DNA of 56,640 nt from Campylobacterota bacterium (GCA_013153475.1 JAADEJ010000017.1:1-56640), one strand, 5' to 3'. Shown: positions 28,403-55,912, numbered from the stretch's first letter. Numbers and translations: made by a program. The notes: a model not told the origin generated them from the letters alone.

Positions 28403-30322
28403 ATGCGTATATCGGTGTCGATCGCTCTGGCGGCACTATTATCGTGCGGTGTCTGGGGAAGCGACGATCTGGACGCCTTGCTTGGCGAGTATGCCCAAAA
28501 AGCCGACCTTTCCGAACAGACGCGTCGGGAGAGTGCCGGTTTTCTGCAGGTCTATACCCGGCAGGATCTGGACAGGATGCAGATCCGTCAACTCAAGGAG
28601 TTGCTGGAACGAATCCCCTTTTTCCGTTATACCGAAGACAAATACGGTTTGACCAATCCTTTCTACGAACCCTATCAACCTCCCGTTCCCAACGGCGTGA
28701 AAGTCTATATCAACGATCACACCATTTCGGGCGTGTTTACCAACGACGGCCTGCGGGTTTTCGGCCAGATGGATATGTCTTTTATCGATCACGCGGAGAT
28801 CTATCTGGGCATACCTTCCCAGACCTTCGGGATTGAAAGCGCCTATTACGTGATCAAACTCTATACGAAAAACCCGAAGAGAGAGAATACCTCGTTGATC
28901 GGTGCGTTGCTCGGCAGCCGGGGAACGTCGGAAGTATACGGGTATCAGGCCGGTGTGAAAGAGAACTTCGACTATCTGGCCTTTGCCAACTATTCCCACC
29001 TGAACCGGCAGGATGTCAAAGCGCCAAACGGCAATACGCTGCATCGGGACAAAGAGTATTCGACCGGGTACGGTCAGTTGCAAAGCGGCCACCATCGTCT
29101 GGAACTTCAGGTGATGAAGGGAAAGTCGGACGCTTTTATGGGGGACAGTCCCGACCTGATGTCGATCAATCCGGATTTTGACTTCAGCTATTTTTACGGC
29201 GGTTGGTATTACGACAACCCTGACAACGGTTTGAAAGCGTTTGTCAATGCCAGCTATTCGGTCAGCCTCTACGACGATAGAACGGAGCCGCCCTATCCGT
29301 TGGGGTTTTACGAGATCGAGCAACCGCCTTATGTTCAGTTCTATTACGAAGATCATACCCGGATTGAGGAGTTTATCTACGAAGCCCAGCTGAAGAAGCG
29401 TTTCAAATATGGCAAGTTCGTCAACGAAACAGGTCTTCAGGCCCGCTACAAAAAGTTCAATCTCGCCGATACGCCCTATCCCTCTCCAGACGATTACAAT
29501 GCCCAGACCCTGCTCTCTTTTTTCAGTGAGGAGAGTTATCTTTTCGACGATCATCGCATGGCGGTGGCTTCGATCAAAGTGGACCGTTCCATCGAGAACG
29601 GGCATGTGGAGGATTCAACCGTCTATTCCGGGCGGGTAGGGTTTATTTATAACAACGGAAACTGGATCAGCAAAAGTTTTCTGATGTACGCGGAGAGCCT
29701 TCCGGTCATGCAGGCCTACTACGCCAACCGTTATCTATTCCATCAGGATGAGGATCCCGACAAAGAGCAGGGGGCGGTCGGCGCGACCAAACTGATCTAC
29801 CGGACGGGGCAAAACGAGATCTCTTTTCTCGCCTCCAAAATGTTCCGGAAAGACAGTTGTTACTTCTTTCTTGACGAAAACGGAAACGGTAAATACGGCA
29901 ACCTTCCCGATACCATGAGTTTCAATACTTTCATGGCGGAATTGAAACACAACTTCTCTCCTCTCGCGAAAATCTCATTGAACGGATGGGAGAGTATCAA
30001 TATTCTTCGGAACGGTCTGGGAAGCTCCAAAACATTCGGCGGTGTTCTGTCGTGGTCGGCGACGGTCGACAAACTGGATATGCATACGGATTTCATCTAT
30101 CAGCGTTTTGAAGATTTGAAACCGGGGTTGGATTGGAATATGGCGGTGACATACCGCTACTCACGGGCGCTCAGCCTGTTTCTGAAAGCCAACGATATCC
30201 TCGGCAGGGCCCTGAAACAGAACTATTATGTTTACAACCCTTTGACGGGTGTGACGACCAGGCTGGACGGTGTGGATGTGATCGATCGTCGATTATGGGT
30301 CGGGTTGGAGTATCAGTTTTGA
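28403..30322 (+). CDS. TonB-dependent-receptor-like outer-membrane protein
   Basis: A 639-residue exported protein with a signal peptide (MRISVSIALAALLSCGVWG). The plug-like domain at about 40-165 has FLQVYTRQDLDRMQIRQLKE, ELLERIPFFRYTEDKYG and VKVYINDHTISG. The rest is a beta-barrel-like region with alternating aromatic strands, ending in phenylalanine (LWVGLEYQF) as barrel proteins do. I see no standard TonB box after the signal. The barrel is at the short end for transport receptors. The next gene overlaps its stop by 4 bases, and a GGDEF-EAL gene follows, pointing to sensing and not only uptake. I recall similar receptor-like genes beside signalling genes in other Campylobacterota. The ligand is unknown. 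Confidence 0.78.
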   Translation: MRISVSIALAALLSCGVWGSDDLDALLGEYAQKADLSEQTRRESAGFLQVYTRQDLDRMQIRQLKELLERIPFFRYTEDKYGLTNPFYEPYQPPVPNGVKVYINDHTISGVFTNDGLRVFGQMDMSFIDHAEIYLGIPSQTFGIESAYYVIKLYTKNPKRENTSLIGALLGSRGTSEVYGYQAGVKENFDYLAFANYSHLNRQDVKAPNGNTLHRDKEYSTGYGQLQSGHHRLELQVMKGKSDAFMGDSPDLMSINPDFDFSYFYGGWYYDNPDNGLKAFVNASYSVSLYDDRTEPPYPLGFYEIEQPPYVQFYYEDHTRIEEFIYEAQLKKRFKYGKFVNETGLQARYKKFNLADTPYPSPDDYNAQTLLSFFSEESYLFDDHRMAVASIKVDRSIENGHVEDSTVYSGRVGFIYNNGNWISKSFLMYAESLPVMQAYYANRYLFHQDEDPDKEQGAVGATKLIYRTGQNEISFLASKMFRKDSCYFFLDENGNGKYGNLPDTMSFNTFMAELKHNFSPLAKISLNGWESINILRNGLGSSKTFGGVLSWSATVDKLDMHTDFIYQRFEDLKPGLDWNMAVTYRYSRALSLFLKANDILGRALKQNYYVYNPLTGVTTRLDGVDVIDRRLWVGLEYQF

Positions 30323-30753
30323 GACGTCTCCTGCTTTTTCTGCCTTTCTTACTGCTGACTCTTTGGGCCGCGACGGCGGATGAGTTGAAGATCCGCATTA
30401 TGGAGAGTCTCGCACGGTTGGTGACACACAAGGAGAATCCCGGCGTCTATATCGATACGGGCAAACGGTTCGATACCAAGGCGGCGGCGTTGTCGAAAAT
30501 GCGTATCGTCTCCTCCTGTGAAACGGCGGATGTCCTTTTTACCGAGAATGTCGGCGCCCTGATGGAGCGCTGCCGTATCCGGCCGGGGCAGTTGGTCTTT
30601 TCTCTCTCCTACCGGGACTATCTCGCCCATAAAGAGAGGACTATCGGTGCCTTTTTCTGGCAAAAGGGCCGACCCAATATCATTTTGAACGGTGAAGAGC
30701 TTGAAAAAGAGCGGATAGAGATTCCCAAACGGTACGAGAAATATGTGGAGTAG
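30319..30753 (+). CDS. Small exported protein between receptor-like and GGDEF-EAL genes
   Basis: A 144-residue protein of unrecognised family. It starts at TTG 30319 overlapping the receptor stop (TTGA), with GGAG 9 bases upstream, and opens with a signal sequence (LRRLLLFLPFLLLTLWAATA). The mature part has two cysteine-free ends, one internal CETADVLF and one MERCRI cysteine, and a closing IGAFFWQKGRPNIILN then EIPKRYEKYV. That closing pattern and the place in the operon recall YfiR-type periplasmic regulators, which hold back membrane diguanylate cyclases, but this is a resemblance by eye only. An ATG at 30295 in frame would put 8 extra residues before the signal. Confidence 0.65.
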   Translation: MRRLLLFLPFLLLTLWAATADELKIRIMESLARLVTHKENPGVYIDTGKRFDTKAAALSKMRIVSSCETADVLFTENVGALMERCRIRPGQLVFSLSYRDYLAHKERTIGAFFWQKGRPNIILNGEELEKERIEIPKRYEKYVE

Positions 30754-30760
30754 CAAAAAA

Positions 30761-30775
30761 GACGGGCGGGCCGTC
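30761..30775 (+). other. Small hairpin in the receptor-signalling operon
   Basis: GACGG (30761-30765) can pair with CCGTC (30771-30775) in the 39-base gap before the GGDEF-EAL start. It has no T tract after it, so it is not a standard terminator; it might affect messenger stability or ribosome access. Confidence 0.3.
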
Positions 30776-30792
30776 GGGAAAGGTGCCGCCTG

Positions 30793-32706
30793 ATGTGGAA
30801 AAAACCGCTGCGTTATCTGTTACCCTATCCGGTGATCTATTCGGCCGTTTTGTTGGCGGTCACGGTTTCGGTATTGCTGTTTTACCGAAATATCGATCAT
30901 ACGTTCGAAGAGCTGACCGACGCGTTTTTGCGCTATCAGAGTGACAATATCGAGGAGTTTGCCAGAAATATAGAGGTTCGGGCCGTGCAACTCGTTCCCG
31001 ACAGACCCGTCGAGACGCTGAAACACAACCCGGCCCTGCGGGAACGGCTCAACCGTATTCTTTCTCTCTTCTCGACCAAAAGTTATCGTTATGTCTATAT
31101 GCTGCGACTGGATGATTCGGGCAAACTCCGTTATGTCGCCGACGGATCCTTTGAAGTGGGGGAACGGGGTGTTTTCGGGCAGAAATTCGATCCCGACAGC
31201 GACGCATGGCTCAAGGCGTTAAGAAGCGGAGAGCCGGTTTACCGCATACAGGACAATTTTACCGGCCTGTGGATCACCTACTACTATCCGATGAAAATCT
31301 GGCAGAAAAAGCGTTATCTGCTGGTGTTTGACATCTCTTTGACCATGCTGGAGAGTTTCAAAACGTTGATTCTCCCGATCAGAGGTCTTTTGAAAACCAT
31401 ATCGGCGGTTTTGATCGCGCTGCTTGCGTTGAGTCTGTTATGGGCGGTTCTCTTCTATTTTCAGCGTCGCAAAAACAGTATCGATCCCCTGACACGTCTT
31501 TATAACCGTAATATGCTCGACGAGGTACGCCATCGTCTCGATTTACGAAAGACTTCGGTGATTCTGGCGGATATGGACCATTTCAAGCGGATCAACGACC
31601 GGTACGGGCACGATACAGGCGACGCGGTATTGCGCCATGCGGCAAGAATTCTGATGCGTATGACCAGGCCGGAGGATATTCTGATCAGGTACGGCGGAGA
31701 AGAGTTTCTGATCTTTATCAACGGCGTCGAGAGTCGGGAGGATGTCATCGAGATCGCCTACCGGATTCACAACGCTTTCAGTATGCATCCGATGCGTTAC
31801 AACGGGCATGAGTTGCAGATTACCGTCTCAATGGGCGTGGTTCCGACACCCGGCGCGACGATGGACCTTTCCGAAGCGATTCTCATGGCGGACAAAATGC
31901 TTTATATCGCCAAGACGACCGGACGGAACAAAGTGGTGATTTTCGGTGAAGAGAAAAACGCGCCCCGGCCGCTTCTATATCACGAGATCGAGGAGTCGAT
32001 TCGGGAAGAGAGAATCTTTTTTCTCTATCAGCCGATCTATGATGCCGAAAGTATGGAGCTGGCCAAATACGAAGTGTTGGCGCGTATCCGGGACAAGGAG
32101 GGTAACGTTCACCTTCCCAACGAGTTCATTCCCGTTATTCGCGGTACCGGTGCCTACAGGGAGATGAGCAAACATCTGATCAACGACGCGCTCGCGTTGA
32201 TTCGCGAAAAAGGTGTCTCTCTTTCGATCAACTTCGATATCAACGATTTTTTGGATGAGACGCTTTTCGAGACGATCTACGACAGTTTCGAACGGTGTGA
32301 GGGGTTGACGAGACAGTTGACGATCGAATTGCTGGAAGAGAATCCGGTCCATGACATGAAGGGGCTTGAAAACAAGATCAGGCAGCTCAAGGAACTGGAT
32401 ATCGAGATCGCCATAGATGACTACGGAAAAGGGTATGCCGGATTGGAGTATATCTTGGCGTTTCGGCCTCACATTCTGAAGGTAGACAGGTATCTGGTTT
32501 CCCGGGTCTTTTCACATCCCCATGTTCCCGCGATTCTGGAGTCTATTGTGACAACGTGTCGTCGGATCGGTATCAAAACGGTGGCGGAAGGGATAGACAA
32601 CGAGTTGCAGCTGCAGAAAATGCGTCAGCTCGGTTTCGATTATCTCCAGGGGTTCTATCTGGGCAAACCCTCGGAAAAACTGGTTGAGGAAGAGCGCAGA
32701 CAATGA
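30793..32706 (+). CDS. Membrane GGDEF-EAL cyclic-di-GMP enzyme
   Basis: A 637-residue bifunctional-type protein. Helices near 12-30 and 200-225 enclose a periplasmic sensing domain of about 165 residues. The GGDEF domain has SIDPLTRLYNRNML, DMDHFKRINDRYGHDTGD, an intact I-site RPED five residues before YGGEEF (active-site form near residue 302), so it should make cyclic-di-GMP. The EAL domain reads YEVLARI for EAL, and keeps SINFDIN, IELLE, IDDYGKGYAGLEYI, LKVDRY, TVAEGID (Asp for the usual second Glu) and LQGFYLGKP. Most metal and catalytic ligands remain, so hydrolysis is possible. It lies 39 bases after the small exported protein gene; the HAD gene overlaps its end by 4. Confidence 0.9.
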   Translation: MWKKPLRYLLPYPVIYSAVLLAVTVSVLLFYRNIDHTFEELTDAFLRYQSDNIEEFARNIEVRAVQLVPDRPVETLKHNPALRERLNRILSLFSTKSYRYVYMLRLDDSGKLRYVADGSFEVGERGVFGQKFDPDSDAWLKALRSGEPVYRIQDNFTGLWITYYYPMKIWQKKRYLLVFDISLTMLESFKTLILPIRGLLKTISAVLIALLALSLLWAVLFYFQRRKNSIDPLTRLYNRNMLDEVRHRLDLRKTSVILADMDHFKRINDRYGHDTGDAVLRHAARILMRMTRPEDILIRYGGEEFLIFINGVESREDVIEIAYRIHNAFSMHPMRYNGHELQITVSMGVVPTPGATMDLSEAILMADKMLYIAKTTGRNKVVIFGEEKNAPRPLLYHEIEESIREERIFFLYQPIYDAESMELAKYEVLARIRDKEGNVHLPNEFIPVIRGTGAYREMSKHLINDALALIREKGVSLSINFDINDFLDETLFETIYDSFERCEGLTRQLTIELLEENPVHDMKGLENKIRQLKELDIEIAIDDYGKGYAGLEYILAFRPHILKVDRYLVSRVFSHPHVPAILESIVTTCRRIGIKTVAEGIDNELQLQKMRQLGFDYLQGFYLGKPSEKLVEEERRQ

Positions 32707-33173
32707 TAAACCTCACGATACCGGGACGCGAACCCTTGACGATACGGTCGGTGGTACTGGATTTCAACGGTACCGTGGCGCTTGACGGTTCGCTGTTGCC
32801 GGAGGTAGCGGAGCGGTTGGACGTTTTATCCGAGGCGTTTGGGGTGTATGTGCTGACGGCTGATACCTTTGGCAGCGTTCGGAAAGCGCTGGAAGGTTAC
32901 CAAGTGGGCGTAAGAATCCTTGAAAGCGGTGACCATACAGAGGAAAAGGCCGCTTTTGTCCGGCAATTGGGGGCACGACATTGCGTAGCCGTCGGCAACG
33001 GGGCGAATGATGCCCTTATGCTCAAAGCCGCGGCGCTGGGTATTGCCGTTATCGGCGGGGAGGGCGCGGCTGTCGACGCGTTGCTGAACGCCGACCTGGT
33101 TTGCAAAAATATTGCCGATGCGCTGGACCTTCTGACCTATCCCGATCGTTTGAAAGCCACGCTGCGTCGCTGA
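32703..33173 (+). CDS. HAD superfamily protein, soluble P-type ATPase-like
   Basis: A 156-residue cytoplasmic HAD-fold protein. Motif I reads VVLDFNGTVALDG, so the second acid of the usual DxDGT phosphatase motif is Asn, as in the small proteins annotated as soluble P-type ATPase (COG4087). Later motifs are VLTADTFG, KAAFVRQLGARHCVAVGNGANDALMLKAA and ALGIAVIGGEGA. The cap domain is minimal. Such proteins may be phosphatases of unknown substrate. The start overlaps the GGDEF-EAL stop by 4 bases, making it the last gene of that run. Confidence 0.8.
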   Translation: MINLTIPGREPLTIRSVVLDFNGTVALDGSLLPEVAERLDVLSEAFGVYVLTADTFGSVRKALEGYQVGVRILESGDHTEEKAAFVRQLGARHCVAVGNGANDALMLKAAALGIAVIGGEGAAVDALLNADLVCKNIADALDLLTYPDRLKATLRR

Positions 33174-44456: not shown

Positions 44457-46523
44457 ATGCCTCTGTCACGTCTGAATCCCGAGCAGCTTGCCGCCGCGAA
44501 AGCCCCGTTTGGGCATAACCTGGTTATCGCTTCGGCCGGAACGGGGAAAACCTCCACGATCGTGGGGCGGATTGCCCATCTGCTCGCTTCGGGTATTCGG
44601 CCGGAAGAGATTTTGCTGCTCACCTTCACCAACAAGGCGGCGGCGGAGATGGTGGAGCGGATAGCGGGCTATTTTGACCGTCAGACGGCCTCGCGCATCG
44701 AGGCGGGTACCTTTCACGCGGTGAGTTACCGACGACTCAAAGCCCTTCGTGAAAACGTGGTGTTGAAACAACCCATGGAACTGAGAACCCTCTTTCGCTC
44801 CATCTATGACAAACGCCAGTTTCACCGGCTCTCTTTGGATGGGCAACCCCTTTCGGCCAATTTTCTTTATGATGCCTATAGCCTCTGGCAAAACGCCTCA
44901 AATGAGGATTTTGTTATGTGGCTTAACGATCGGCACGAGGGGCAGGCGGTTTTTGGCGACATTTACCTGGATATTATCGAGGAGTTTCAAAAGACCAAAG
45001 AGGCCTACGGGTTTGTCGATTTTAACGATCTTTTGATTTTGATGCGGGAGCATTTTAGGCGGAGTGATTCGCCTTTTAAAGAGGTGTTGGTGGATGAGTA
45101 CCAGGATACCAACGCCCTGCAGGGAAGCTGGATCGACGCGCTCGATCCGCCTTCTCTCTTTTGCGTGGGCGATTATGACCAGAGTATCTACGCCTTTAAC
45201 GGGGCCGATATCCATATTATCGCGGGTTTTACCGAACGCTACCCCGACGCCCGGGTCTTTACACTGAGCAAAAATTATCGCTCCACCGCCCCGATTCTCT
45301 CTTTGGCCAACCGGGTGATCGAATACAATGAACGTATTTATCCCAAGAAACTGGAAGTGGTAAGAGAGGGAAGGGCGGAGCCGCCGAGGCTTTTGATGTT
45401 TGAGACCCTGATGCAGCAGTATGAGCAGATTGCGCAGATGATACGCCGCTCCACCGTGCCCCACGCCGAGATCGCCGTGATCTTTCGCAACAACGCCTCT
45501 GCCGACGGTATTGAGGCGATGCTAAGAGAGCAGGGGATTGCCTGTCGACGAAAAGGGGGACGAAGCTTTTTTGACGCCAAGGAGGTGAAGGCGGCGCTGG
45601 ATCTGGCGACGTTGACGGTCAATCCCAAGGATATGATGGCTTTTATCCATATTTTCGAGTATGCGCCCGGCGTGGGGAGTGCCACGGCCAAAGAGCTTTT
45701 TGAGGGGCTGACGGCCCTGGGACACGGCGATATGCTGGAAGGTCTGATGCGACCGGACGGGAGTATAAACCCGTTTAAGGCTCGAAAGGTCAATTATCAG
45801 TTGGGACTCTTTGACCATCCCCAGTATGTGGGATCGGTCTCCCGTTTTGCCCATTTGGGGCTTGAAGAGAGTTTTCTGGCCCATCCCATTCTCAAACATC
45901 CCGCTCTCAATGCGGAGGGGGTACGCTTTTTGTACGCCTTTTACCGTCTGATGCACGGCCTTCGGGTCAAAAAGCAGCCGCTAAGCATGATGCGGGAGAT
46001 TCTCGCTTCCAAGGTGTACGATACCGTGATACAGCAGTTGGCCAGAAAACGGTCGACGCTCAAAAACGGAGAAATAGATGAAACTCTCAAGGAGCAGGCG
46101 CTTGAGCGGATTCGCAGAAAAGGGAGATTGCTAAACCAGCTTGCCGGCGCCTATACCGGCATGGAGCGTTTTATCAACGCCATGGTGCTGGGCGGGGCGG
46201 AGCTGAGTGAAGGGGAGGGGGTCAATCTTTTGACGGTACACGCCTCCAAAGGGCTGGAGTTTGAGGAAGTCTATGTGATTGATTTGATGGATGGGCGTTT
46301 TCCCAACCGAAAACTGGCCAGTCGCGCCGGACTTATTGAAGAGGAACGTCGTCTTTTTTACGTGGCGGTAACCCGGGCCAAAAGCCGTCTTTATTTGAGT
46401 TTCGCCAAGGAAGATCGTTTCAAAGATGTCACGTTTGTGCCGTCGCAGTTTCTTTATGAAGCGGGGTTGTTGAAGAAAGATGAGACCTACGAGAGGCTAA
46501 AGAGCCTCTCGCTACCCGATTAG
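44457..46523 (+). CDS. UvrD/Rep-family ATP-dependent DNA helicase
   Basis: A 688-residue superfamily 1A helicase that unwinds DNA with 3'-5' polarity in repair or replication restart. All motifs are visible: LNPEQLAAAKAPFGHNLVIA, Walker A ASAGTGKTSTIVG, LTFTNKAAAEMVERI, VDEYQDTNALQG, GDYDQSIYAFNGAD, LSKNYRST, LLTVHASKGLEFEEVYVIDL and LFYVAVTRAKSRLYLSF. Length and motif spacing fit Rep/PcrA/UvrD. Which of these it replaces cannot be decided by reading. Its stop overlaps the stop of the convergent MshG-like gene by 4 bases. Confidence 0.93.
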   Translation: MPLSRLNPEQLAAAKAPFGHNLVIASAGTGKTSTIVGRIAHLLASGIRPEEILLLTFTNKAAAEMVERIAGYFDRQTASRIEAGTFHAVSYRRLKALRENVVLKQPMELRTLFRSIYDKRQFHRLSLDGQPLSANFLYDAYSLWQNASNEDFVMWLNDRHEGQAVFGDIYLDIIEEFQKTKEAYGFVDFNDLLILMREHFRRSDSPFKEVLVDEYQDTNALQGSWIDALDPPSLFCVGDYDQSIYAFNGADIHIIAGFTERYPDARVFTLSKNYRSTAPILSLANRVIEYNERIYPKKLEVVREGRAEPPRLLMFETLMQQYEQIAQMIRRSTVPHAEIAVIFRNNASADGIEAMLREQGIACRRKGGRSFFDAKEVKAALDLATLTVNPKDMMAFIHIFEYAPGVGSATAKELFEGLTALGHGDMLEGLMRPDGSINPFKARKVNYQLGLFDHPQYVGSVSRFAHLGLEESFLAHPILKHPALNAEGVRFLYAFYRLMHGLRVKKQPLSMMREILASKVYDTVIQQLARKRSTLKNGEIDETLKEQALERIRRKGRLLNQLAGAYTGMERFINAMVLGGAELSEGEGVNLLTVHASKGLEFEEVYVIDLMDGRFPNRKLASRAGLIEEERRLFYVAVTRAKSRLYLSFAKEDRFKDVTFVPSQFLYEAGLLKKDETYERLKSLSLPD

Positions 46524-47767
46524 TGGGCGCCTTTGACGGCGCGGGCAAGATCCCACATGGGCATGAAGATACCCAGTGCCAACAGAAGGACCATGGCAGC
46601 CAGAAAGGCGAGCATAATGGGTTCGATATAGGCGGACATATTGTCCAGAATGTTGTTGAAGCGCATACGGTAGTAGTCGGTGACTTTGTACATCATGGCA
46701 TCGAGCTGACCACTGGTCTCGCCGGCGCTGATCATCTGGATAATCATGCTCTCGAACAGGTCGGTGTCTTTGAAAGCATCAGTCAGGGTGACACCCCGTG
46801 ATACGCTTACTTTCACGCCCTCGAGCCGTTCCCGCAATACTGCGTTGTCGATCATGTCGGTGGCGGTATCGAGCGCTTCGGCGACGGGAATACCGGAGTG
46901 AATCAGCTCCGTAAAGACCAAAGAGAAGCGCTGCAGGGTCGCGAAGTAGATGATATCTTTGATCAGATAGATTTTGAGTAACAGTTTGTCTACCTGATAT
47001 TTGAATTTCGGATTGGTTCGGTAAAAGTAGACGACGGCCGCGATGGAACCGATGAGTCCCATCAGAATGAGCAGACCGTAGTGGGAGAGGGCGTACTCCA
47101 ATCCCAGCAGAATTTTGGTCGGCAGGGGCAGTTCGGCGTGGAAACTCTCGAAAATCGCCTTGAACTTGGGAACGACGACGGTAATGAGAATGGTAAAGGC
47201 CGCTGCCATGGCGGTCATGGTGATCAGGGGATAGCGCATGGCCTTCTTGAATTTGGCGATATTTTCCTGCACCTCTTCGAGAATATCGGCCAGACTGCCC
47301 AGGGAGTCGGCCATATTACCGGTGCGCTCACCCAGCTCCACCATGGCCAGCGTAATGCCGCCCAGCTCGTTTTTGTACTGTTTGAAAGTATCAGAGAGGT
47401 TCAAACCGGCGTTGATGTTGTCCACCGCCTGTTGCAAAATCTCTTTGAGTTTTTTGTCTTCGGTGGCTTTGACGATCTCTTTGAGTGAGTCATGCACGGA
47501 GATGCCGGCGTTGGTCATGACCGACATCTGCCGTACCGCGACAATGAGCTGTTTGAGAGAGACCTTCTTGCCGGTAAAGTTGTTGAGGAATTTCTGGATC
47601 AGCTCTTTGATCATCTCGTCCGCGGGCGCGGCCACCTCTTTGACCCGGACGAGTGTCCCTTTGTGGGACTGCTTGAACTTCTTGATCGCATCCTCTTTGG
47701 AGTGGGCCTTGAGCACCACCGTGAGTTTGGCGTTTTTCTGCCTGAATGAAAACTGATAATACTTCAT
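46520..47767 (-). CDS. MshG/GspF/PilC-type inner-membrane platform protein
   Basis: A 415-residue polytopic protein of the type II secretion/type IV pilus F family, the inner-membrane base on which the ATPase acts. It has two T2SSF repeats (VRQMSVMTNAGISVHDSLKEI and LQRFSLVFTELIHSGIPVAEAL), membrane segments near 185-215, 235-260 and a final one (PIMLAFLAAMVLLLALGIFMPMW). It is the last gene of the operon. In the MSHA order this is the MshG place. No minor or major pilin gene follows; the next gene is the convergent helicase. Start overlaps the ATPase stop by 4 bases. Confidence 0.9.
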   Translation of the reverse strand: MKYYQFSFRQKNAKLTVVLKAHSKEDAIKKFKQSHKGTLVRVKEVAAPADEMIKELIQKFLNNFTGKKVSLKQLIVAVRQMSVMTNAGISVHDSLKEIVKATEDKKLKEILQQAVDNINAGLNLSDTFKQYKNELGGITLAMVELGERTGNMADSLGSLADILEEVQENIAKFKKAMRYPLITMTAMAAAFTILITVVVPKFKAIFESFHAELPLPTKILLGLEYALSHYGLLILMGLIGSIAAVVYFYRTNPKFKYQVDKLLLKIYLIKDIIYFATLQRFSLVFTELIHSGIPVAEALDTATDMIDNAVLRERLEGVKVSVSRGVTLTDAFKDTDLFESMIIQMISAGETSGQLDAMMYKVTDYYRMRFNNILDNMSAYIEPIMLAFLAAMVLLLALGIFMPMWDLARAVKGAH

Positions 47768-49509
47768 GATAACCTCGCTACGCGTAATACTTCGTCAATG
47801 GTGGTTTTGCCCTCCACCGCTTTGTTGACGCCGTCCTGGATCATGGTGACAAATCCCTGGCGTTTGGCCTCCTCGAAAATCTCTTTTTTGGAGGCTTCCC
47901 TGGCGATCATACTGGAGATGGTCTCATTGGAGCGCAGGACCTCACTGATCATCTCCCGCCCCTGGTAACCGGTCCCCTGACACTCTTTGCATCCCGTTCC
48001 TTTGAAGAAGGTGGCCTCTTCGGGAAGGTACTCCTCCAACTCTTCGTAGATGTGGGCGGGAATGTCGGCAGGGGCCTTACAGTGGGGACAGATTTTGCGC
48101 ACCAAGCGCTGGGCTTCCACCGCGATCAGCGAACCGGAGATGAGGTAGGGCTCGATCCCCATGTCGGCCATCCGTGTGATGGCGCTGATGGCGTCGTTGG
48201 TGTGTAGGGTAGAAAGAACCAGGTGACCGGTCAGCGCGGCCTGGATGGCGATACGCAACGTCTCCTGGTCGCGGATCTCACCGATCATGATGATATCGGG
48301 GTCCTGACGCAAAATGGAGCGCAGGGCACTGGCGAAGGAGAGGCCCACCTTGGGGTTGACCTGTACCTGCTGGATCAGGTTCATCTGGTACTCTACCGGG
48401 TCTTCGACGGTGATCAGCTTGGTGTCGATGCTTTTAAGGTTGTTGATGGCGCCGTAGAGGGTGGTGGTTTTACCGCTACCGGTCGGGCCCGTGACCAGCA
48501 CGATGCCGTAAGGAACCTTGAGCGCTTTGCTGAAGATGTCGAAATTGTGGGGACTCATGCCCGCGTCTTCGAGTTTGATCATCGCCTTGGTTTTGTCCAG
48601 GATACGCAAAACGATGGACTCTCCGTTCATGACCGGCAGAGTCGAAACCCGGAAGTCGAAAGATTTTTCCATCAACGTGGCGGAGAAACGGCCGTCCTGG
48701 GGTTTGCGCCTTTCCGCGATGTCCAGGTTTGAAAGAAGCTTGAGACGGGAAGAGAGAGGCGGATAGATATCTTTGTCGAAGCGGAAGGTTTCGGTCAAAA
48801 GTCCGTCGATCCGGGATCGGACGATACAATTGTTTTCGGTCGGCTCAATGTGAATATCGCTGGCGCGAGCCTGAATGGCGGTTTTGAGTATGAGTTCGAT
48901 CAGTTTCAAGATGGCGGAGGATTCTCCCGCTTCCACTGCCGACGTACTCATACTGATCTCATCGCGAATTTCGGTAATGAGCCCTTTGATATTGTCGTTG
49001 AGCAACAGTTTGTCCAGATGGTATTTGACCTGGCTGGGTATGGCGACGATGGGATTGATCGGCTTGCGGGGGAAGAGGCGTTGGACGTTCTCGATGGCGT
49101 TGATGTCCACAGGGTCTTTGAAAGCCACCAAAACGCTTAGATCCTCCTCTTTCAGGGGGAGCGCGCCGAACTTTTCCAGCTTCTGAATCGGCAGTTTTGC
49201 CGTGAGTTTGAGATCGAAATCCACTTCATCCAGGTCGAGGAACTGATAGTCGAGTTGTTTGGCGAAATATTTTAAAAAGGCTTTGAAATTGAACTGGTTG
49301 CTGTCCTCTTCGATCTCTTCCAGGGTGACCAGCCCGCTTTTGAGTTTTTCGGTCAAAAACGGGTAGAGCTGTTCTTCGTTGAAAAGTTTATTGTCGATTA
49401 AAGACTTGAGAGTGATCTGTTTTAATCGTTTGACTTTTTGTAGCAGCGTGATCTTTTCAGGCGTTATAACGCCCGCATCCTGCAAAAGTTCAAGAATTTT
49501 CCCAGCCAT
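47764..49509 (-). CDS. MshE/GspE/PilB-type assembly ATPase
   Basis: A 581-residue cytoplasmic ATPase that drives pilus or pseudopilus extension. It has a long N-terminal region, Walker A GPTGSGKTTTLYGAI near residue 343, an Asp box, Walker B DPDIIMIGEIRDQET, the His box LTGHLVLSTLHTNDA and a zinc site of two knuckles, CPHC and CKEC, near residues 475 and 508. The first 60 residues (ILELLQDAGVITPEKI) recall the start of the cyclic-di-GMP-binding MshEN motif but lack its leading RLG. It overlaps the platform gene by 4 bases and lies 16 bases after the small exported gene. Confidence 0.92.
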   Translation of the reverse strand: MAGKILELLQDAGVITPEKITLLQKVKRLKQITLKSLIDNKLFNEEQLYPFLTEKLKSGLVTLEEIEEDSNQFNFKAFLKYFAKQLDYQFLDLDEVDFDLKLTAKLPIQKLEKFGALPLKEEDLSVLVAFKDPVDINAIENVQRLFPRKPINPIVAIPSQVKYHLDKLLLNDNIKGLITEIRDEISMSTSAVEAGESSAILKLIELILKTAIQARASDIHIEPTENNCIVRSRIDGLLTETFRFDKDIYPPLSSRLKLLSNLDIAERRKPQDGRFSATLMEKSFDFRVSTLPVMNGESIVLRILDKTKAMIKLEDAGMSPHNFDIFSKALKVPYGIVLVTGPTGSGKTTTLYGAINNLKSIDTKLITVEDPVEYQMNLIQQVQVNPKVGLSFASALRSILRQDPDIIMIGEIRDQETLRIAIQAALTGHLVLSTLHTNDAISAITRMADMGIEPYLISGSLIAVEAQRLVRKICPHCKAPADIPAHIYEELEEYLPEEATFFKGTGCKECQGTGYQGREMISEVLRSNETISSMIAREASKKEIFEEAKRQGFVTMIQDGVNKAVEGKTTIDEVLRVARLS

Positions 49510-49525
49510 GTGCCCTTTCTCCCCC

Positions 49526-50098
49526 CTACCAATAGCGATGTATTTTAACTGTTTTGCCGTCGACGATCTCTTCCACGATCATGTGAGGCCCCCGTTTGTG
49601 CGATTCCAGATAGAGTTTGTAGCTTTTGCCTGACCGGTTGGGGTCGGTTAGAAAATAAACCCCTCTCTTTTTTTCGTAGTTGCGATGAACGATCAGATCG
49701 AAAACAATGGAGATGACGTGATCGGTTACCGGCAGACGTACGGTTGAGAGATCCAATCCGTCAAGAAGTTTTTGATAGAGCATCTTTTTTTGCAGAAGAA
49801 TGGTGGCGAAATAGGTAGCGTTTTTTCGTTCGGTCGGGGTGTACCGCAGGGCGGTGAGAGGAACCGCCAGCCGGTCGATATAGTCGGCATGGAGACAGGA
49901 AAAGCCGTAGAGCATCACGAAATCGTTGTTCTTTTTGTACTTTTCAAAGTACCGAAGCCCGACATTGCACGCTTTTTTGTAATACCCTTTTTTGTATAGA
50001 GAGACCATCTGCCTTAAAGGTGTCTCCTCGGCGTGAAGAGACAGGCCCAGCATACTGATGAACAAAAGAGGAGTCAGAAATCTTTTTACCGTTACCAT
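49526..50098 (-). CDS. Exported protein of unknown function within the MSHA-like operon
   Basis: A 190-residue protein with a signal peptide (RFLTPLLFISMLGLSLHA) and a helical, TPR-like start (LYKKGYYKKACNVGLRYFEKY). The following region is basic and mixed, with VTDHVISIVFDLIVHR and a final beta-like GPHMIVEEIVDGKTVKIHRYW. Two cysteines (KKACNV and GFSCLH) may pair. I recognise no family. It sits between the MshN-like and MshE-like genes, a place that has no gene in the MSHA operon I recall. Its start overlaps the MshN-like stop by 7 bases, so it is almost certainly co-translated and part of the machine or its control. Confidence 0.75.
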   Translation of the reverse strand: MVTVKRFLTPLLFISMLGLSLHAEETPLRQMVSLYKKGYYKKACNVGLRYFEKYKKNNDFVMLYGFSCLHADYIDRLAVPLTALRYTPTERKNATYFATILLQKKMLYQKLLDGLDLSTVRLPVTDHVISIVFDLIVHRNYEKKRGVYFLTDPNRSGKSYKLYLESHKRGPHMIVEEIVDGKTVKIHRYW

Positions 50099-50958
50099 GC
50101 GGATGCCTCGATCAGTTCAAGATAGGCCCGGATCTTTTTGGAAGAGTATTGGTTGAGATAGGTTCTCAGGGCATTGACGGCATCCTCTTTCTGTTTGAGC
50201 GCCATTTTCGCTTTGGCAAAAAGCAGCCAGCTCGTTTCGTTTCCCGGTTCGATGGAGTTGGCGATGATGCTCCAGCGGATCGTTTCGTTGTAATTTCCCT
50301 TTTTGTAGAAACTTTGGGCGATATAGGTAGCCAGTTTCGGGTCTTTGGTCTGGTTGAAACGGTGAATGAGGGTTGAGAGGGTGTTGTTGGTCTTTTTGGA
50401 AGTGATGACAAGTCCGCTTTTGCCGCTCTCTTTTTTGGCGCTGACCGTGATTTTTGGCGTTTCAGCTTTTTGGGGCTGGGCGGTGACCGTTTGGGAAGGA
50501 GATCTCTTCTTCTTTACAGGCGATTTTTTGACAGAAGTGTTGACGGGTTTCGTTTTGGCGATTCTCTCTTGTTTCGTCGTTTTGTCAAGGCGTTGGAGAA
50601 AGTCCATGTCCGGTTCGATCGTCGGGTTGCTTTCCGGTCGCTCAACGGTGTTTTGCGCAATCTTTTCCACCGGAGCCGTGTGATGCAGGGTTGGTGCGGG
50701 TGTCGGAACGCTCGTGCCGGATTCGTTTTTCACTGTTTTCGGTGTTTGAGGGGAAAGGGACTTTTTTACCGGCTGCTCTTTTTGATGGGTGACGGGGAGG
50801 GCCTTTTTTTGCGTGGAGGATGCGGGTGTGTCCGTTTTGACAAAAAGGATGGCGGCAGCGATAGAGAGTAGAGTTGTCGCGCCTATGATGGCCGGAAGGA
50901 TACGGCGTTTAAGATGATAACGTCGCCAGGCTTTTTCCAATGCTTCTATGTCATGCAT
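50092..50958 (-). CDS. MshN-like membrane-anchored TPR protein
   Basis: A 288-residue protein with a short cytoplasmic start, one membrane helix (ILPAIIGATTLLSIAAAILFV), a long low-complexity linker rich in K, P, T and S (about 45-190), and C-terminal TPR-like repeats (YIAQSFYKKGNYNETIRWSIIAN, SWLLFAKAKMALKQKEDAVNALRTYLNQY). The layout and operon position match MshN of the MSHA pilus. The linker is long enough to reach across the periplasm toward the secretin. It overlaps its upstream neighbour by 8 bases. Confidence 0.78.
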   Translation of the reverse strand: MHDIEALEKAWRRYHLKRRILPAIIGATTLLSIAAAILFVKTDTPASSTQKKALPVTHQKEQPVKKSLSPQTPKTVKNESGTSVPTPAPTLHHTAPVEKIAQNTVERPESNPTIEPDMDFLQRLDKTTKQERIAKTKPVNTSVKKSPVKKKRSPSQTVTAQPQKAETPKITVSAKKESGKSGLVITSKKTNNTLSTLIHRFNQTKDPKLATYIAQSFYKKGNYNETIRWSIIANSIEPGNETSWLLFAKAKMALKQKEDAVNALRTYLNQYSSKKIRAYLELIEASAW

Positions 50959-51757
50959 GGATATACCCCAGTTTCAGTCCCGCCATTTCGATAAATTTGT
51001 TCTGGAAGGTATTGCCGGCTATTTTGGAGGGCTGTTTTTTTTCGTAATAGTCGTAAATTTCCAACAGGGTGTACATCAGTTTGTTGATCTCCCTGTAATT
51101 GCCGCCGGTAAGACGGTGGATCAGTTTGACGTTTCCTTTTGTCAACATGGTGGCGACTTCAAAAAAGTTTTTTTGCACGATCTTCTTTTGCAAGTAGACC
51201 TGTGCGTCATGAACCGTGCCGTTTTTGAGTTCGATGGTCTCCCAGATACGTGACTGGAAATGCTCTTTGGCGATGAGATCCTCCCGATCGGTTTTATGCA
51301 GGGCCACGACAAATTTGATGACGCGGCTGTCGGAAATGAGCCGGATCTTCTCCATCATCGTCGAATCATAGAGTTGGGCTTCATCGAGCAGGACGATGAT
51401 ATGTTTTTCATCTTTCAGTGTATGTAGAATCTGGATGAACCGGTTGAAGCTGATCGTTTCGGGTTGCTCTTTTTCAGGAAAAAGAAAATCGTAGAGTGTT
51501 CGCAAAAACTCCTCTTCGTTGAGGATGGGTGTCGAGATCAGATAGATGGGTTTGCTCTCTTTGTTGTCATGATGGATTTTGTTGAGAAGAACACTTTTAC
51601 CTGTTCCCGGTTTGCCGAAAAGCAGGATCATCTTCAGGGGTTTTTCGATACTCTCCATCAGTTTGTTGTAAAAAAGAATCGACGTATCGAGGCCTATATA
51701 TTCGTCGGCCTCGATCTTGTCGATAAAAGCGCTCTGAAGCTCTTTGTATTTGCTCAT
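50951..51757 (-). CDS. MshM/ExeA-like AAA ATPase
   Basis: A 268-residue cytoplasmic AAA ATPase. It has YIGLDTSILFYNKLMESIEKP, Walker A LLFGKPGTGKSVLLNKI, Walker B IIVLLDEAQLYDSTMMEKIRL and a sensor region (SRVIKFVVALHKTDR), then a helical lid. Such proteins (MshM, ExeA) are found with secretins; ExeA helps ExeD assemble in the cell wall. Unlike ExeA, it has no membrane helix or peptidoglycan-binding part. It lies next to the secretin gene, overlapping it by 4 bases. Confidence 0.85.
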   Translation of the reverse strand: MSKYKELQSAFIDKIEADEYIGLDTSILFYNKLMESIEKPLKMILLFGKPGTGKSVLLNKIHHDNKESKPIYLISTPILNEEEFLRTLYDFLFPEKEQPETISFNRFIQILHTLKDEKHIIVLLDEAQLYDSTMMEKIRLISDSRVIKFVVALHKTDREDLIAKEHFQSRIWETIELKNGTVHDAQVYLQKKIVQKNFFEVATMLTKGNVKLIHRLTGGNYREINKLMYTLLEIYDYYEKKQPSKIAGNTFQNKFIEMAGLKLGYIHA

Positions 51758-53322
51758 GGCATCTTGGTCATGTTGCTGTCGGAGAGGCGTGCGAATCCAA
51801 GATCTTTCAGCGTCATGCGGTTTTTCGCTTTGACCAGATGGGGGGTGACAATGATAACCAGTTCGATCTTCTCGTCGGTCTTTTCGTCATATTTGAAGGC
51901 GTTGCCAAGCAGCGGAATATCGCCGAGCAGAGGTACTTTGTTTACCGCCGTCTGGATTTTGTCCGTAATCAGACCGCCGAGAATCACATGAGAGCCGTCT
52001 TTAACGGTTACAACAGAAGCCATTTGACGGCGTTCCAGGTCCGGCGGCATGGTGCGCTGGGTGTTGTCGTCGGTGATAGGTTGAATGGTGTCGCTGACTG
52101 AAGGGTTGATTTTGAGTGTGATGGTGCCGTCGGATGAGATTTCCGGTGTGATATCGAGCAAAATACCGGCGAATACGGAGTCGATGATTTCGTTGGTCGC
52201 CTGAGAGCCGGTACCGGTGCCCGCCAATGTCTGAACGTTTTGGATTTTGTAAAAATATTGTTTGCCCACCGTAATCATGGCCGCCTGGTTGTTCAGGGTC
52301 AGAACTTTGGGGTTGGAGACCGACTGTACTTCACCCTGTGACTCGAGAAACTTGACGATGGTGCCGATCTGGGCGTTCATGACGATGTCGGTGAAGGTGG
52401 AGATGGGATCCGTACCGAACTGGCTGATATAAGGGAGCTGGCCGCCGTCGGGAAAGGTGATTTCATGAACGTTGCTGTTGGTTCTAAGCCGTTCTCCCGT
52501 GACGGTAAAGTTTTGCAACTTGTAAATCTCACGCCAGTCGATCCCTTTCTGGTGGCCGTCGGAGAGAGTGACCGCATACATTTTGACGTCGATAAGGACC
52601 TGTTTGTGCAAGCGGCTCATGAGGGTATTGAGGTACTCTTCCACCCGATCGAGCTGTTTTTTGGTTCCCGTAATGGTGACGAGCCCTGACTCTTTGTCGA
52701 TGACGGGAGCGCCGGCATGGTAGTGATCTTCGGGGCGATTGAGAATATTGGTGATCTGATTGGAGAGCTTGTTCCAAAAATCGAACTTGTCGTCCGAAAC
52801 GATATCGATACCGCTTTGCGACTCTCCGGTTGTGAAATTGCTTCCCGTTACGGTTGCGCCGGTCGTGCCGCCCTGGCGTTGTCCACCGTTTTGAGAATTG
52901 CCGCCGACACCGCTGGCAAGGGAGATTTTTGTCGTGCTCCGGCTGGTGCGCTCCGTGCCGATGTAATCGACGTGGAACGTTTTGGTCAGCAGGTAGGAGA
53001 TTTTCAGAATATTCCCATCCAACGTATAATTGAGGTTGTGTTCGCTGAGCGCGACGTTCAGGACTTCCGGCAAAGAGACATTTTTCAACGAAAAGCGGTT
53101 GAGAGTCGCCTTCATCCGTTTGGCCGCTTCCGTATCTTTGATGATCAGTGTCAGGTCACACTGTTCGGCCAATTGATCCACCAGTTCCGATATTTTGGTG
53201 CCTGGTCCCGCCTTGATGGTAAAGAGCTCTTCCGTACAGTCGGCCTGCAGGGAGACAGTGGCGCTAAGCAGCAGGGCCGCCAGAGAGAGTCGGCAGGTTC
53301 GCATGGGTTTTAAGATATTCAT
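51754..53322 (-). CDS. MshL-type secretin (outer-membrane channel)
   Basis: A 522-residue secretin that forms the outer-membrane gate. It has a signal peptide (RLSLAALLLSATVSLQA), an N-terminal STN/N0-type domain about 30-110 (LPEVLNVALSEHNLNYTLDG), and a Gly/Thr/Ser-rich stretch near 135-165. Further on are an N1-like domain (DKESGLVTITGTKKQLDRVEEYLNTL) and the secretin core about 320-510 with VSNPKVLTLNNQAAMITVG, GSHVILGGLITD, KVPLLGDIPLLGNAF and VIIVTPHLV. The length and layout fit MshL/PilQ. No pilotin gene was recognised nearby. Confidence 0.92.
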   Translation of the reverse strand: MNILKPMRTCRLSLAALLLSATVSLQADCTEELFTIKAGPGTKISELVDQLAEQCDLTLIIKDTEAAKRMKATLNRFSLKNVSLPEVLNVALSEHNLNYTLDGNILKISYLLTKTFHVDYIGTERTSRSTTKISLASGVGGNSQNGGQRQGGTTGATVTGSNFTTGESQSGIDIVSDDKFDFWNKLSNQITNILNRPEDHYHAGAPVIDKESGLVTITGTKKQLDRVEEYLNTLMSRLHKQVLIDVKMYAVTLSDGHQKGIDWREIYKLQNFTVTGERLRTNSNVHEITFPDGGQLPYISQFGTDPISTFTDIVMNAQIGTIVKFLESQGEVQSVSNPKVLTLNNQAAMITVGKQYFYKIQNVQTLAGTGTGSQATNEIIDSVFAGILLDITPEISSDGTITLKINPSVSDTIQPITDDNTQRTMPPDLERRQMASVVTVKDGSHVILGGLITDKIQTAVNKVPLLGDIPLLGNAFKYDEKTDEKIELVIIVTPHLVKAKNRMTLKDLGFARLSDSNMTKMP

Positions 53323-53325
53323 TCC

Positions 53326-53751
53326 TCAATCCTTCGTCTGGATAAGTTTGATGTTGCTTTTTTTGCGGGCACGCATGGAGACGTGAACCGTTTCGCGTCC
53401 GCGCTTCAGGGTGACGGCGTCGGGTGTCACTTTGGCTATGATATAACCGTACAGCCTGTCCCCCTGTTTATACCATTTGCCGTTGAGTTTGACTCTGTCG
53501 TTGAAAACGGCGGTCAGCGTGAACTTCCTTCTCGGTTTGGGAGCCGGTTTTTTCACACTGATCGTTTTGTTGTTGTCTGAGTGAACAAACGGATCAAACG
53601 AGGCAAGGATCTCCTTATGCGTCAATCCCTTGCGCGGCTGTTTGATCTGATTGATCAATCGGTCGATCTTCTCCAACGGCGATTGCGCATAGAGCAGCAA
53701 GGCCGTTCCCGTCGCCGCCAGGGCGACTTTGATTAGTAGTTGATTCCCCAT
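53326..53751 (-). CDS. MshK/PilP/GspC-like periplasmic protein
   Basis: A 141-residue protein with an N-terminal hydrophobic segment (LLIKVALAATGTALLLYA) and a basic linker. The C-terminal beta-rich piece reads FTLTAVFNDRVKLNGKWYKQGDR, then YIIAKVTPDAVTLKRGRETVHV. This last region resembles the homology region of GspC/PilP and MshK, which contacts the secretin N domains. It lies directly before the secretin gene (3-base gap), in the MshK position. Similarity is by pattern; the call is moderate. Confidence 0.72.
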   Translation of the reverse strand: MGNQLLIKVALAATGTALLLYAQSPLEKIDRLINQIKQPRKGLTHKEILASFDPFVHSDNNKTISVKKPAPKPRRKFTLTAVFNDRVKLNGKWYKQGDRLYGYIIAKVTPDAVTLKRGRETVHVSMRARKKSNIKLIQTKD

Positions 53752-54377
53752 ACCGAAACCTTCATAGCGGATGATATCTTCTTCCCGCCTTCAATGTTGA
53801 TGTCATAGATATCGACAACCAGGTTGCTCTCTTCGATGGCATTGATAAAGGCAAGAAGATTTTTGTAGCTTCCTTCGCACTCTATCCCGATCTCAAGTAC
53901 ATGCCCGAAGCTCTTTTTGTTGTCGATAAACTTGTTGGAGAGCAGGGTGATACGGACATGGTGTTTTTTCGCCTCTTTGGTGATGGAGTCGAGGAATTTC
54001 GCCCAGTTCTTTTCGTTAAAGAGCATTTCCGACAGCGTCTGGATCTGGAAGTCGAAGTATTCATTCAACTCCCGGGTGTCTTTGAATTCGTTTTTCAGGC
54101 GCTGAATATCGTTTTGAAGAAGTTTGATCTTATAGCGCCGATCGCCGTTGACGGTAATGGAACTTAAGTACTTTTCATGGCCCCGTATGGTACTTTCCAA
54201 CGTTCTTTTCGTCATCAGGTCCCGCTTGAGAACCTTTTCGGACATCGGAATCAGCATACCGTAGGAGAGATAGCCGAAAAGAAAGAGAATACCCACGACG
54301 ATGATGTAGAACTCACTCTCTTTGCGTCCCTCGAAATAGTTGTCCAGGTTTTCCAGGGTGTCTTCTATGAATTTCAT
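53733..54377 (-). CDS. MshJ/PilO-like inner-membrane alignment protein
   Basis: A 214-residue bitopic protein. It has a short cytoplasmic part, one membrane helix (FYIIVVGILFLFGYLSYGMLI), a coiled coil about 60-110, and a C-terminal ferredoxin-like fold (VRITLLSNKFIDNKKSFGHV, LEIGIECEGSYKNLLAFINAIEE). This is the PilO/GspM/MshJ layout; such proteins pair with a PilN-like partner, here the C-terminal half of the next gene upstream. It overlaps neighbours by 4 and 19 bases. Confidence 0.82.
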   Translation of the reverse strand: MKFIEDTLENLDNYFEGRKESEFYIIVVGILFLFGYLSYGMLIPMSEKVLKRDLMTKRTLESTIRGHEKYLSSITVNGDRRYKIKLLQNDIQRLKNEFKDTRELNEYFDFQIQTLSEMLFNEKNWAKFLDSITKEAKKHHVRITLLSNKFIDNKKSFGHVLEIGIECEGSYKNLLAFINAIEESNLVVDIYDINIEGGKKISSAMKVSVWGINY

Positions 54378-55912
54378 TTCAAACTCACCTTCAAGTCTCC
54401 GAAGTAGACGTTGCTTTCGGAGTTTTTGTAGATTTTGTCGATGTCCGCGTCTATCTCATCTCCATATTTGTCCGTGATATGTTTGATATATTCGGTAATC
54501 TGTTTGTCTGTCGCCGCAATCAGCGAAAAGATGAATTCGTTTTCATGGTTTGTCACTTTCGTGATCTTGACACGGTAAGGCTTCATATCGTCGGCGAACT
54601 GTTTGATTTTTGTCGCCTTCATGGGGTATTCCACTTTTTTCTTATAAACGGCACTCAGTACTTTCTGTTTTTTGACCAGGGCTTCCTGCTCCTGTGCCAC
54701 CTTCTCCTGGTAACTCTTTTTGGTCTTCTGCAACGCGTCGATCTCGTTACGCAGCGCGGTGGTGATACGTCGTAACTTGCTCTCTTTTTCACGCAGCAGG
54801 ACAATGGCGGCTTTCGTGTAATAGTCGTAGACATAGTTGTAGATGGGAACGGAAAGCGCCAGCAGGATCGCCGCCGCGGAAACCAGAATGAATTGCCCGC
54901 TTTTTCGTTTGGGAAACGGCGGCGGTCGGTAGAAGAGGGTGAAGTTGAGATTTTCGATCTCCTGTGGATCCGAGGAGAGAATTTCGGTCACGCTCAGATA
55001 ATGGAACTGGTCGATATACCAGTCGTCGTGGCGGATGTCGTAATCGAAATCGAAGTCCATCGCCTCGATGCCCAGATAGGTTTGGGCGTATTCGTTTAGT
55101 CCGAGGATCGGGCCGATAACCGAGCCGATGTAGAAGAGGTCGATTTTTTCAAGGTTATAGGCCCGTTTGGCGTAGGTGAGGATATCGTTGACATGCATGA
55201 AGATCTCGCTGAAGAGCTTCATGAGGATATCCTGATACTCGATATTGGAGGTTTTGAGTCCCTGTTCTTCGAGCATGTTGTAGAAAGTCTCTTCGTCTAC
55301 CCGCTCCCCGAAGAGTTCGCAGAAACGCTCGAAAATATGTTCCAGGGTGAACTTGATGGGTTTGGAGTAGAAGTAGTTGCCGTCCTGATATAGGGCGATG
55401 AACGCGTCTTCCTTGAAAAAGTAGAGGTAACCCTGTACCCCGGCGGATGCCAGAATATTACGTTTATAGAGGTTCTTGATAAGCAATGGGCGGGGCAGGA
55501 TAAAATCGATGAATTTGATGTCGTCGACCACATCGGCGTATGTCTCGAAAATGACACTCGCTTCCGTGACGAAAACATGGAAGAAACGGGTGTCCTGCGT
55601 TCGCATCTCCGGCGCTTCGACAAAACGGATGACGTATTCGATCTCCTGGTCAAGACCAAGGTCTTCATAGGTCTTGATTTCGATGGTGTCCTGAAGATCC
55701 TCTTCCGGTACGTTGCTGCTTACCTCGATGAGCGTGGAGATGAAATCTTTGGAAGCGAGAGAGGATACGATCAGGTTCTTTTTCTCGAACTTCGGTTTAT
55801 CCAGTCGGCTTAAGGTATTATCCGCGTAGAGATAATAGGACGATTGATAGGCATTGACGGAGAGAATGTTGCGATGACCGCTTGTTTTGTTGCCGGAAAA
55901 AAGACTTTTCAT
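54374..55912 (-). CDS. MshI-like protein, PilM-like and PilN-like parts in one chain
   Basis: The 512-residue first gene of the operon. The first 330 residues are soluble and resemble an actin-like PilM/GspL cytoplasmic domain by size and by the IDLFYIGSVIGPILGLNEYAQ stretch near 260-280, without clear nucleotide-binding motifs. A membrane helix follows at about 340-360 (FILVSAAAILLALSVPIYNY), then a coiled coil 365-425 rich in E, K and Q, and a PilN-like periplasmic domain to the end. This resembles GspL/MshI, which link the ATPase to the periplasmic ring. A probable promoter lies in the 156-base gap before it. Confidence 0.75.
   Translation of the reverse strand: MKSLFSGNKTSGHRNILSVNAYQSSYYLYADNTLSRLDKPKFEKKNLIVSSLASKDFISTLIEVSSNVPEEDLQDTIEIKTYEDLGLDQEIEYVIRFVEAPEMRTQDTRFFHVFVTEASVIFETYADVVDDIKFIDFILPRPLLIKNLYKRNILASAGVQGYLYFFKEDAFIALYQDGNYFYSKPIKFTLEHIFERFCELFGERVDEETFYNMLEEQGLKTSNIEYQDILMKLFSEIFMHVNDILTYAKRAYNLEKIDLFYIGSVIGPILGLNEYAQTYLGIEAMDFDFDYDIRHDDWYIDQFHYLSVTEILSSDPQEIENLNFTLFYRPPPFPKRKSGQFILVSAAAILLALSVPIYNYVYDYYTKAAIVLLREKESKLRRITTALRNEIDALQKTKKSYQEKVAQEQEALVKKQKVLSAVYKKKVEYPMKATKIKQFADDMKPYRVKITKVTNHENEFIFSLIAATDKQITEYIKHITDKYGDEIDADIDKIYKNSESNVYFGDLKVSLK

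Follow-up and report, generated by a model that had tools for sequence, protein, structure and literature searches.

A TonB-receptor-like barrel, a small periplasmic protein and a GGDEF-EAL enzyme form a conserved candidate trans-envelope switch in Campylobacterota

Can a receptor-like barrel in the outer membrane act on a cyclic-di-GMP enzyme in the inner membrane by way of a small periplasmic protein? This question is raised by three adjoining genes at positions 28403-32706 of a 56,640-nucleotide stretch of DNA from a Campylobacterota bacterium (GCA_013153475.1, JAADEJ010000017.1:1-56640; the whole stretch is referred to as the window). In order, they encode a TonB-receptor-like outer-membrane barrel, a small protein exported to the periplasm (SP) and a membrane protein with GGDEF and EAL domains. 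An earlier reading of the sequence alone had placed three genes here and compared them to the YfiBNR system. The open reading frames were confirmed at these positions, and our analysis indicates that the unit is probably a three-part trans-envelope switch that works like YfiBNR and HmsCDE, with a plugged barrel in place of the YfiB lipoprotein. This proposal is built on computed features: the genes themselves and the conservation of their coupling, the folds, the intact active sites, and the interchange of both output module and adaptor type around one sensor domain.

Conservation and spread of the gene trio

SP loci are counted here as the 104 distinct loci besides the window; a one-genome-per-species collection held 126 SP loci, of which 80 were retrieved for study. 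The sequence-only reading had named rarity of the trio among relatives as one outcome that would refute its interpretation. Neighbourhood analysis instead recovered the order barrel-SP-GGDEF(-EAL), on one strand and directly adjoining, at 90 of the 104 loci, a linkage that is far above chance. These 90 include three loci in which the shared sensor domain is joined to a kinase output (L123, L132 and L137), while two further loci end at a contig edge and 12 deviate.

SP relatives were detected in 27 of 60 near-relative genomes; in a sample of 298 genomes from across the phylum, 54 had one. Within Campylobacterota, the loci belong to records named Sulfurimonas, Sulfurospirillum, Nitratiruptor, Hydrogenimonas, Arcobacter and others, and they also occur in Aquificota (Aquificaceae, Persephonella and Hydrogenothermaceae). 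Carriers of the trio are mostly marine and vent bacteria. Cultured, non-pathogenic ones include Sulfurospirillum arcachonense, with a GGDEF-only trio at L094, and Sulfurimonas indica (L098). SP and the barrel co-occur within the genus, where the two genomes lacking a barrel match (G010 and G013) also lack SP. Plasmids were searched for SP and YfiR, and neither was found. Patristic distances of barrel and SP are correlated (0.82), and the Aquificota sequences cluster (5/5 or 5/6) in the trees built from SP, the barrel and the sensor domain, but not in that of the short GGDEF domain. As an informal test, this suggests that the trio is inherited as a unit. The genome that contains the window also carries a second complete barrel-SP-GGDEF-EAL trio (G000:C79:12516-12923, locus L072), whose SP is only 27% identical to the first.

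Features of the three genes

The first gene (28403..30322, + strand) encodes a 639-residue protein with a signal peptide, a plug, a barrel and a terminal Phe. Its plug domain (28526..28837, +; residues 42-145) matches PF07715 above the cut-off (E 4.7e-6) and, together with the C-terminal aromatic residue, is a family feature of TonB-dependent receptors. The terminal Phe is shared by 98 of 99 barrel relatives, and the PF00593 barrel model gave a weak match in one relative only. An alignment of 85 barrel-family members showed T40, Y134, K156 and F639 to be invariant or nearly so, and a family motif preceding the plug, LSxxTKxExxG, is present in 42 of the 85 in its strict form and in 78 in a relaxed form. 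The sequence-only reading had noted the lack of an evident TonB box. A strict motif indeed detected this box in none of the 85 family members, compared with three of six non-family TonB receptors of the same genome, although absence by motif is weak evidence given that TonB boxes vary. No transporter genes are regularly present next to the unit.

As read earlier, the 144-residue SP (30319..30753, +) begins inside the barrel's stop codon: its TTG start (30319-30321) and the TGA stop (30320-30322) overlap in TTGA (30319..30322, +), and the sequence 8 nt upstream of the start reads GGAG, a Shine-Dalgarno-like element (30307..30310, +). The same overlap is found in 68 of 99 relatives. SP can start with TTG because the last codon of the barrel is the Phe codon TTT, and this unusual start may therefore be a by-product of the Phe residue used for outer-membrane sorting. 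Downstream, the SP stop and the enzyme start are in frame and separated by a 39-nt gap in the window, whereas they overlap in many relatives, most commonly by 4 nt (45 loci).

The third gene (30793..32706, +) encodes a 637-residue inner-membrane protein with two transmembrane helices and a Cache-like periplasmic sensor domain, followed by a GGDEF domain (31480..31932, +; E 3.2e-37) and an EAL domain (31984..32670, +; E 8.7e-53), in agreement with the original description. The GGDEF domain has a GGEEF motif and an RPED I-site, while the EAL domain has an EVL motif and retains its metal-binding and catalytic residues. Across the enzyme family, almost no variation is seen in the GG(D/E)EF motif, in the I-site or in the EAL residues for metal binding and catalysis, the last of these in 66 relatives. 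The periplasmic part (30892..31386, +; approximately residues 34-198) was modelled confidently by AlphaFold2 as a long helix with a PAS/Cache-type sheet. Foldseek matched this single-Cache/PAS-like domain to the extracellular domain of WalK (TMt up to 0.72) and to Cache sensor domains, and Pfam Cache models matched relatives below the cut-off only.

SP as a probable distant relative of YfiR

Comparison of the small protein with YfiR and DUF4154, a check proposed in the sequence-only reading, gave a mixed outcome: a probably YfiR-like fold and weak profile homology were found, but no match to the DUF4154 model itself. SP carries a signal sequence and no lipobox, and sequence and profile searches against Pfam, NCBIfam and PDB sequences returned no match. 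Its AlphaFold2 model is of high confidence (mean predicted local distance difference test score (pLDDT) 93.9, predicted template modelling score (pTM) 0.84). The best PDB folds in a Foldseek search with this model were single-lobe substrate-binding proteins (8wgl and 6k1y) and, ranking third, 3LKV (E 0.002-0.006), which is named among the Dali neighbours of YfiR by the authors of a YfiR structure (PMC4655355). YfiR chains account for seven of the top 18 PDB matches (structures 4yn9, 4yn7, 4zhy, 4zhu, 4xjy and 5eb1), with TM-scores of 0.46-0.54 (0.54 for 4yn9_B) and E 0.13-0.37.

An hhalign comparison of full-length SP with DUF4154 scored 37.4 (probability 79%), a value inflated in part by the signal peptides, and mature SP scored 21.0, compared with 21.4 for the best of 100 shuffles. 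Due to this inflation, we relied on combined mature profiles and on the fold instead. Against the combined mature DUF4154 profiles, mature SP scored 29.4 (E 2.6e-4) in an alignment that is collinear across 115 columns, while shuffled controls (n = 60) scored 10.9 ± 2.0 with a maximum of 17.6. This points to SP as a probable distant homologue of YfiR/DUF4154, short of proof.

Conservation of SP peaks at Y98, W114, K116 and R118, within and before the signature GAFFWQKGRPN. In the alignment with YfiR, this region falls on the C-terminal part, to which YfiN binding has been mapped (PMC3375315, PMC4655355). In addition, a simple motif count found Cys67 and Cys85 both present in 55 relatives, both absent in 28 and only one present in 15 (Fisher 1e-11, with relatedness ignored), a covariation suggesting that SP contains a disulfide; YfiR likewise has a redox-sensitive Cys pair (PMC4655355).

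One sensor domain with exchangeable outputs and adaptors

The periplasmic sensor domain of the enzyme is conserved across GGDEF-EAL, GGDEF-only and histidine kinase outputs. Complete enzymes comprise 20 GGDEF-only proteins and 66 of GGDEF-EAL length, and the three kinase loci included in the trio count retain the domain (E 9e-42 to 1e-53) in front of a histidine kinase. Since the sensor domain stays constant while the output varies, the barrel and SP appear to be tied to one type of sensor domain, with an exchangeable cytoplasmic output. Among the deviating loci, the gene 3' of SP in L061 and L106 encodes a histidine kinase with a different sensor part, and L037 has the order enzyme-barrel-SP. 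An extra SP-profile match in G025:C43 lies inside a 327-aa frame and was rejected as an enzyme fusion.

The adaptor seems to be exchangeable as well. DUF4154 is present in 22 of the 298 genomes of the phylum, and a TonB-type receptor lies in the same retrieved stretch at 24 of 26 DUF4154 loci (L074 and L192-L217), mostly adjacent and usually accompanied by a GGDEF protein or a kinase. At L200 and L201, a canonical YfiR (9.6e-37) and a TonB receptor are followed by a kinase with the periplasmic domain of the SP trio (E 1.1e-23). YfiR and SP therefore occur in the same position relative to the same sensor domain, and of all the arguments for SP doing the job of YfiR this is the strongest. The sequence-only reading had known of no named system with these parts. 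This holds for the open-access papers searched, among which we found none linking TonB receptors to YfiR or to cyclic-di-GMP control, and no published characterisation of the canonical DUF4154/TonB-receptor loci of Campylobacterota was found; the arrangement is nevertheless not unique to SP, given that canonical YfiR genes mostly stand beside TonB receptors too.

Two further kinds of DUF4154 locus were observed. A divergent subfamily, A3 (L035, L168-L174, L177, L178 and L181), scores slightly above canonical YfiR in comparison with SP, and its loci mostly combine a TonB receptor, an A3 protein and a GGDEF protein (for example, L199, L202 and L205). In the genome of the window, a TonB receptor is divergent to an 868-aa fusion of DUF4154 and a hybrid histidine kinase (L073:4331-9205, G000:C40), in which adaptor and output form one chain.

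Proposed mechanism and alternative explanations

In the mechanism that we favour, the plugged barrel, which has no recognisable TonB box, would sense something outside the cell or in the outer membrane and would alter the availability or conformation of SP as a soluble periplasmic adaptor. SP would then bind the periplasmic Cache-like domain of the enzyme and thereby set the balance between GGDEF synthase and EAL phosphodiesterase activity. By analogy with YfiR, SP may act as a repressor of the enzyme; the direct contacts and the direction of signal flow in this scheme are likewise inferred.

Several observations weigh against this mechanism. The Pfam DUF4154 model PF13689 matched none of 28 SP members above its cut-off, the TM-score of approximately 0.5 between SP and YfiR is borderline and equal to that obtained with single-lobe ATP-binding cassette (ABC) substrate-binding proteins, and, once signal peptides are removed, homology between SP and DUF4154 is no stronger than E 0.0003-0.007. 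At the level of gene order, L038 and L041-L043 carry a barrel and SP with no adjoining enzyme, and a third barrel-family member of the same genome (G000:C5:11627-13504, L191:4625-6565) has no SP or enzyme nearby. An AlphaFold run on a fused read-through of SP and enzyme residues 1-230 (TAG as Q; 12 paired and 73 unpaired rows) gave well-modelled domains (mean pLDDT 90.6) whose relative placement was not confident (pTM 0.58), although the linker of this construct had to cross the membrane; the outcome speaks neither for nor against binding.

The alternative that fares best keeps the same trio and reverses its sign: SP would activate the enzyme, or mainly switch its EAL domain, such that stimulation lowers cyclic-di-GMP. 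Nothing in the data fixes the sign, and the near-invariant EAL residues of 66 relatives make a phosphodiesterase output plausible. We nonetheless consider this version unlikely, although a serious competitor, because 20 relatives with the same sensor domain are GGDEF-only and the characterised proteins YfiR and HmsC are repressors (PMC3375315, PMC5550408).

A different role for SP, as a small ligand-binding protein, is suggested by its best Foldseek matches, the single-lobe substrate-binding proteins (8wgl, 6k1y and 3lkv). The barrel would import or pass on a ligand, and an SP-ligand complex would activate the Cache domain, so that the ligand itself crosses the periplasm and no repressor is sequestered. 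Cache domains often bind small ligands, and the invariant W114, K116 and R118 could line a pocket. We regard this as improbable: a single lobe offers no classical cleft, the barrel without a recognisable TonB box argues against energised import, and the repressor YfiR has a similar fold and the same structural neighbours (PMC4655355).

Least probable is that the barrel works as an ordinary TonB-dependent transporter assisted by a periplasmic accessory protein, and that the GGDEF-EAL gene is merely co-transcribed, as uptake and lifestyle genes sharing regulation, with no protein contact; the plug domain and the several relatives that have a barrel and SP without an adjoining enzyme would suit this, but a membrane signalling enzyme is coupled in about 90% of loci, one periplasmic domain is retained while outputs change, no TonB box was detected by motif and transporter genes do not regularly adjoin the unit.

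A broader but tentative proposal, for which the odds are somewhat unfavourable, is that SP is the first member of a new family of periplasmic adaptors for signals and that the barrel represents a class of TonB-independent outer-membrane receptors for sensing rather than import. In Campylobacterota and Aquificota, the two together would form a general input unit that serves either cyclic-di-GMP enzymes or histidine kinases. YfiN and YfiR are reported to make up a modular core, with GGDEF-EAL proteins and histidine kinases among its outputs and YfiB often missing (PMC3375315), and another sensing protein was suspected where YfiB is absent (PMC5550408). YfiB is missing from the majority of distant YfiR-YfiN pairs, and their signal sensor is an open question (PMC3375315, PMC5550408). 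If the proposal is correct, this input unit would provide YfiR-type systems without YfiB with the outer sensor that they lack, and a TonB-receptor-like protein would take a direct part in cyclic-di-GMP control. The barrel, fixed beside its adaptor at about 90 loci and beside most canonical YfiR genes of the phylum, is a concrete and testable candidate for such a sensor.

Other features of the window

The open reading frames on either side of the unit are ClpB-like and HAD-like. The HAD-like gene (32703-33173, +) overlaps the stop codon of the enzyme and extends the operon, but was rejected as a fourth part of the unit since it follows the unit in few relatives only. In L041-L043, where the enzyme is missing, the HAD gene follows the barrel and SP. 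Elsewhere in the window, positions 3879-5840 (-) encode a membrane protein with, by eye, NIT-like, PAS and HD-GYP-type parts, a further probable cyclic-di-GMP phosphodiesterase. A gene cluster at 46520-55912 (-) resembles, by eye, a type II secretion or type IV pilus system, with an ATPase, an inner-membrane protein and secretin-like proteins.

Comparison with known systems

In TonB-dependent transducers of the FecA/FpvA type, which work with FecR and a sigma factor, a plugged barrel sends its signal across the envelope by means of a periplasmic step. The barrel of the SP unit differs from these in that it has no extra signalling domain before the plug, no adjoining FecR or sigma factor gene and no TonB box by motif.

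A closer parallel is provided by YfiBNR/TpbB of Pseudomonas aeruginosa and Escherichia coli and HmsCDE of Yersinia, which likewise combine an outer-membrane protein, a soluble adaptor of what is probably the same fold type and, in the inner membrane, a cyclic-di-GMP enzyme that has a periplasmic sensor, and whose outputs are swappable (PMC3375315) as in the SP unit. HmsC acts as a repressor of HmsD by interacting with it directly, an effect that HmsE opposes (PMC5550408). The analogy drawn in the sequence-only reading gains from the conserved trio, the fold of SP, its weak DUF4154 homology and the pairing at L200/L201, but it does not extend to the outer part, which is a Pal-like lipoprotein in those systems (YfiB or HmsE) and a plugged TonB-receptor-like barrel here. 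SP is also too divergent for the DUF4154 model, and the periplasmic domain here is Cache-like with a long helix, in an enzyme that in most cases also carries an EAL domain. Because the unit has no YfiB lipoprotein and its SP is not recognised by the DUF4154 model, we do not class it as a member of YfiBNR.

The remaining comparison is with the canonical DUF4154 loci of Campylobacterota (for example, L074, L199 and L200). Their adaptor differs in matching PF13689 and their receptors match PF00593 and mostly belong to another subfamily, yet they comprise the same three kinds of part with short overlaps and, at L200 and L201, the same sensor domain.

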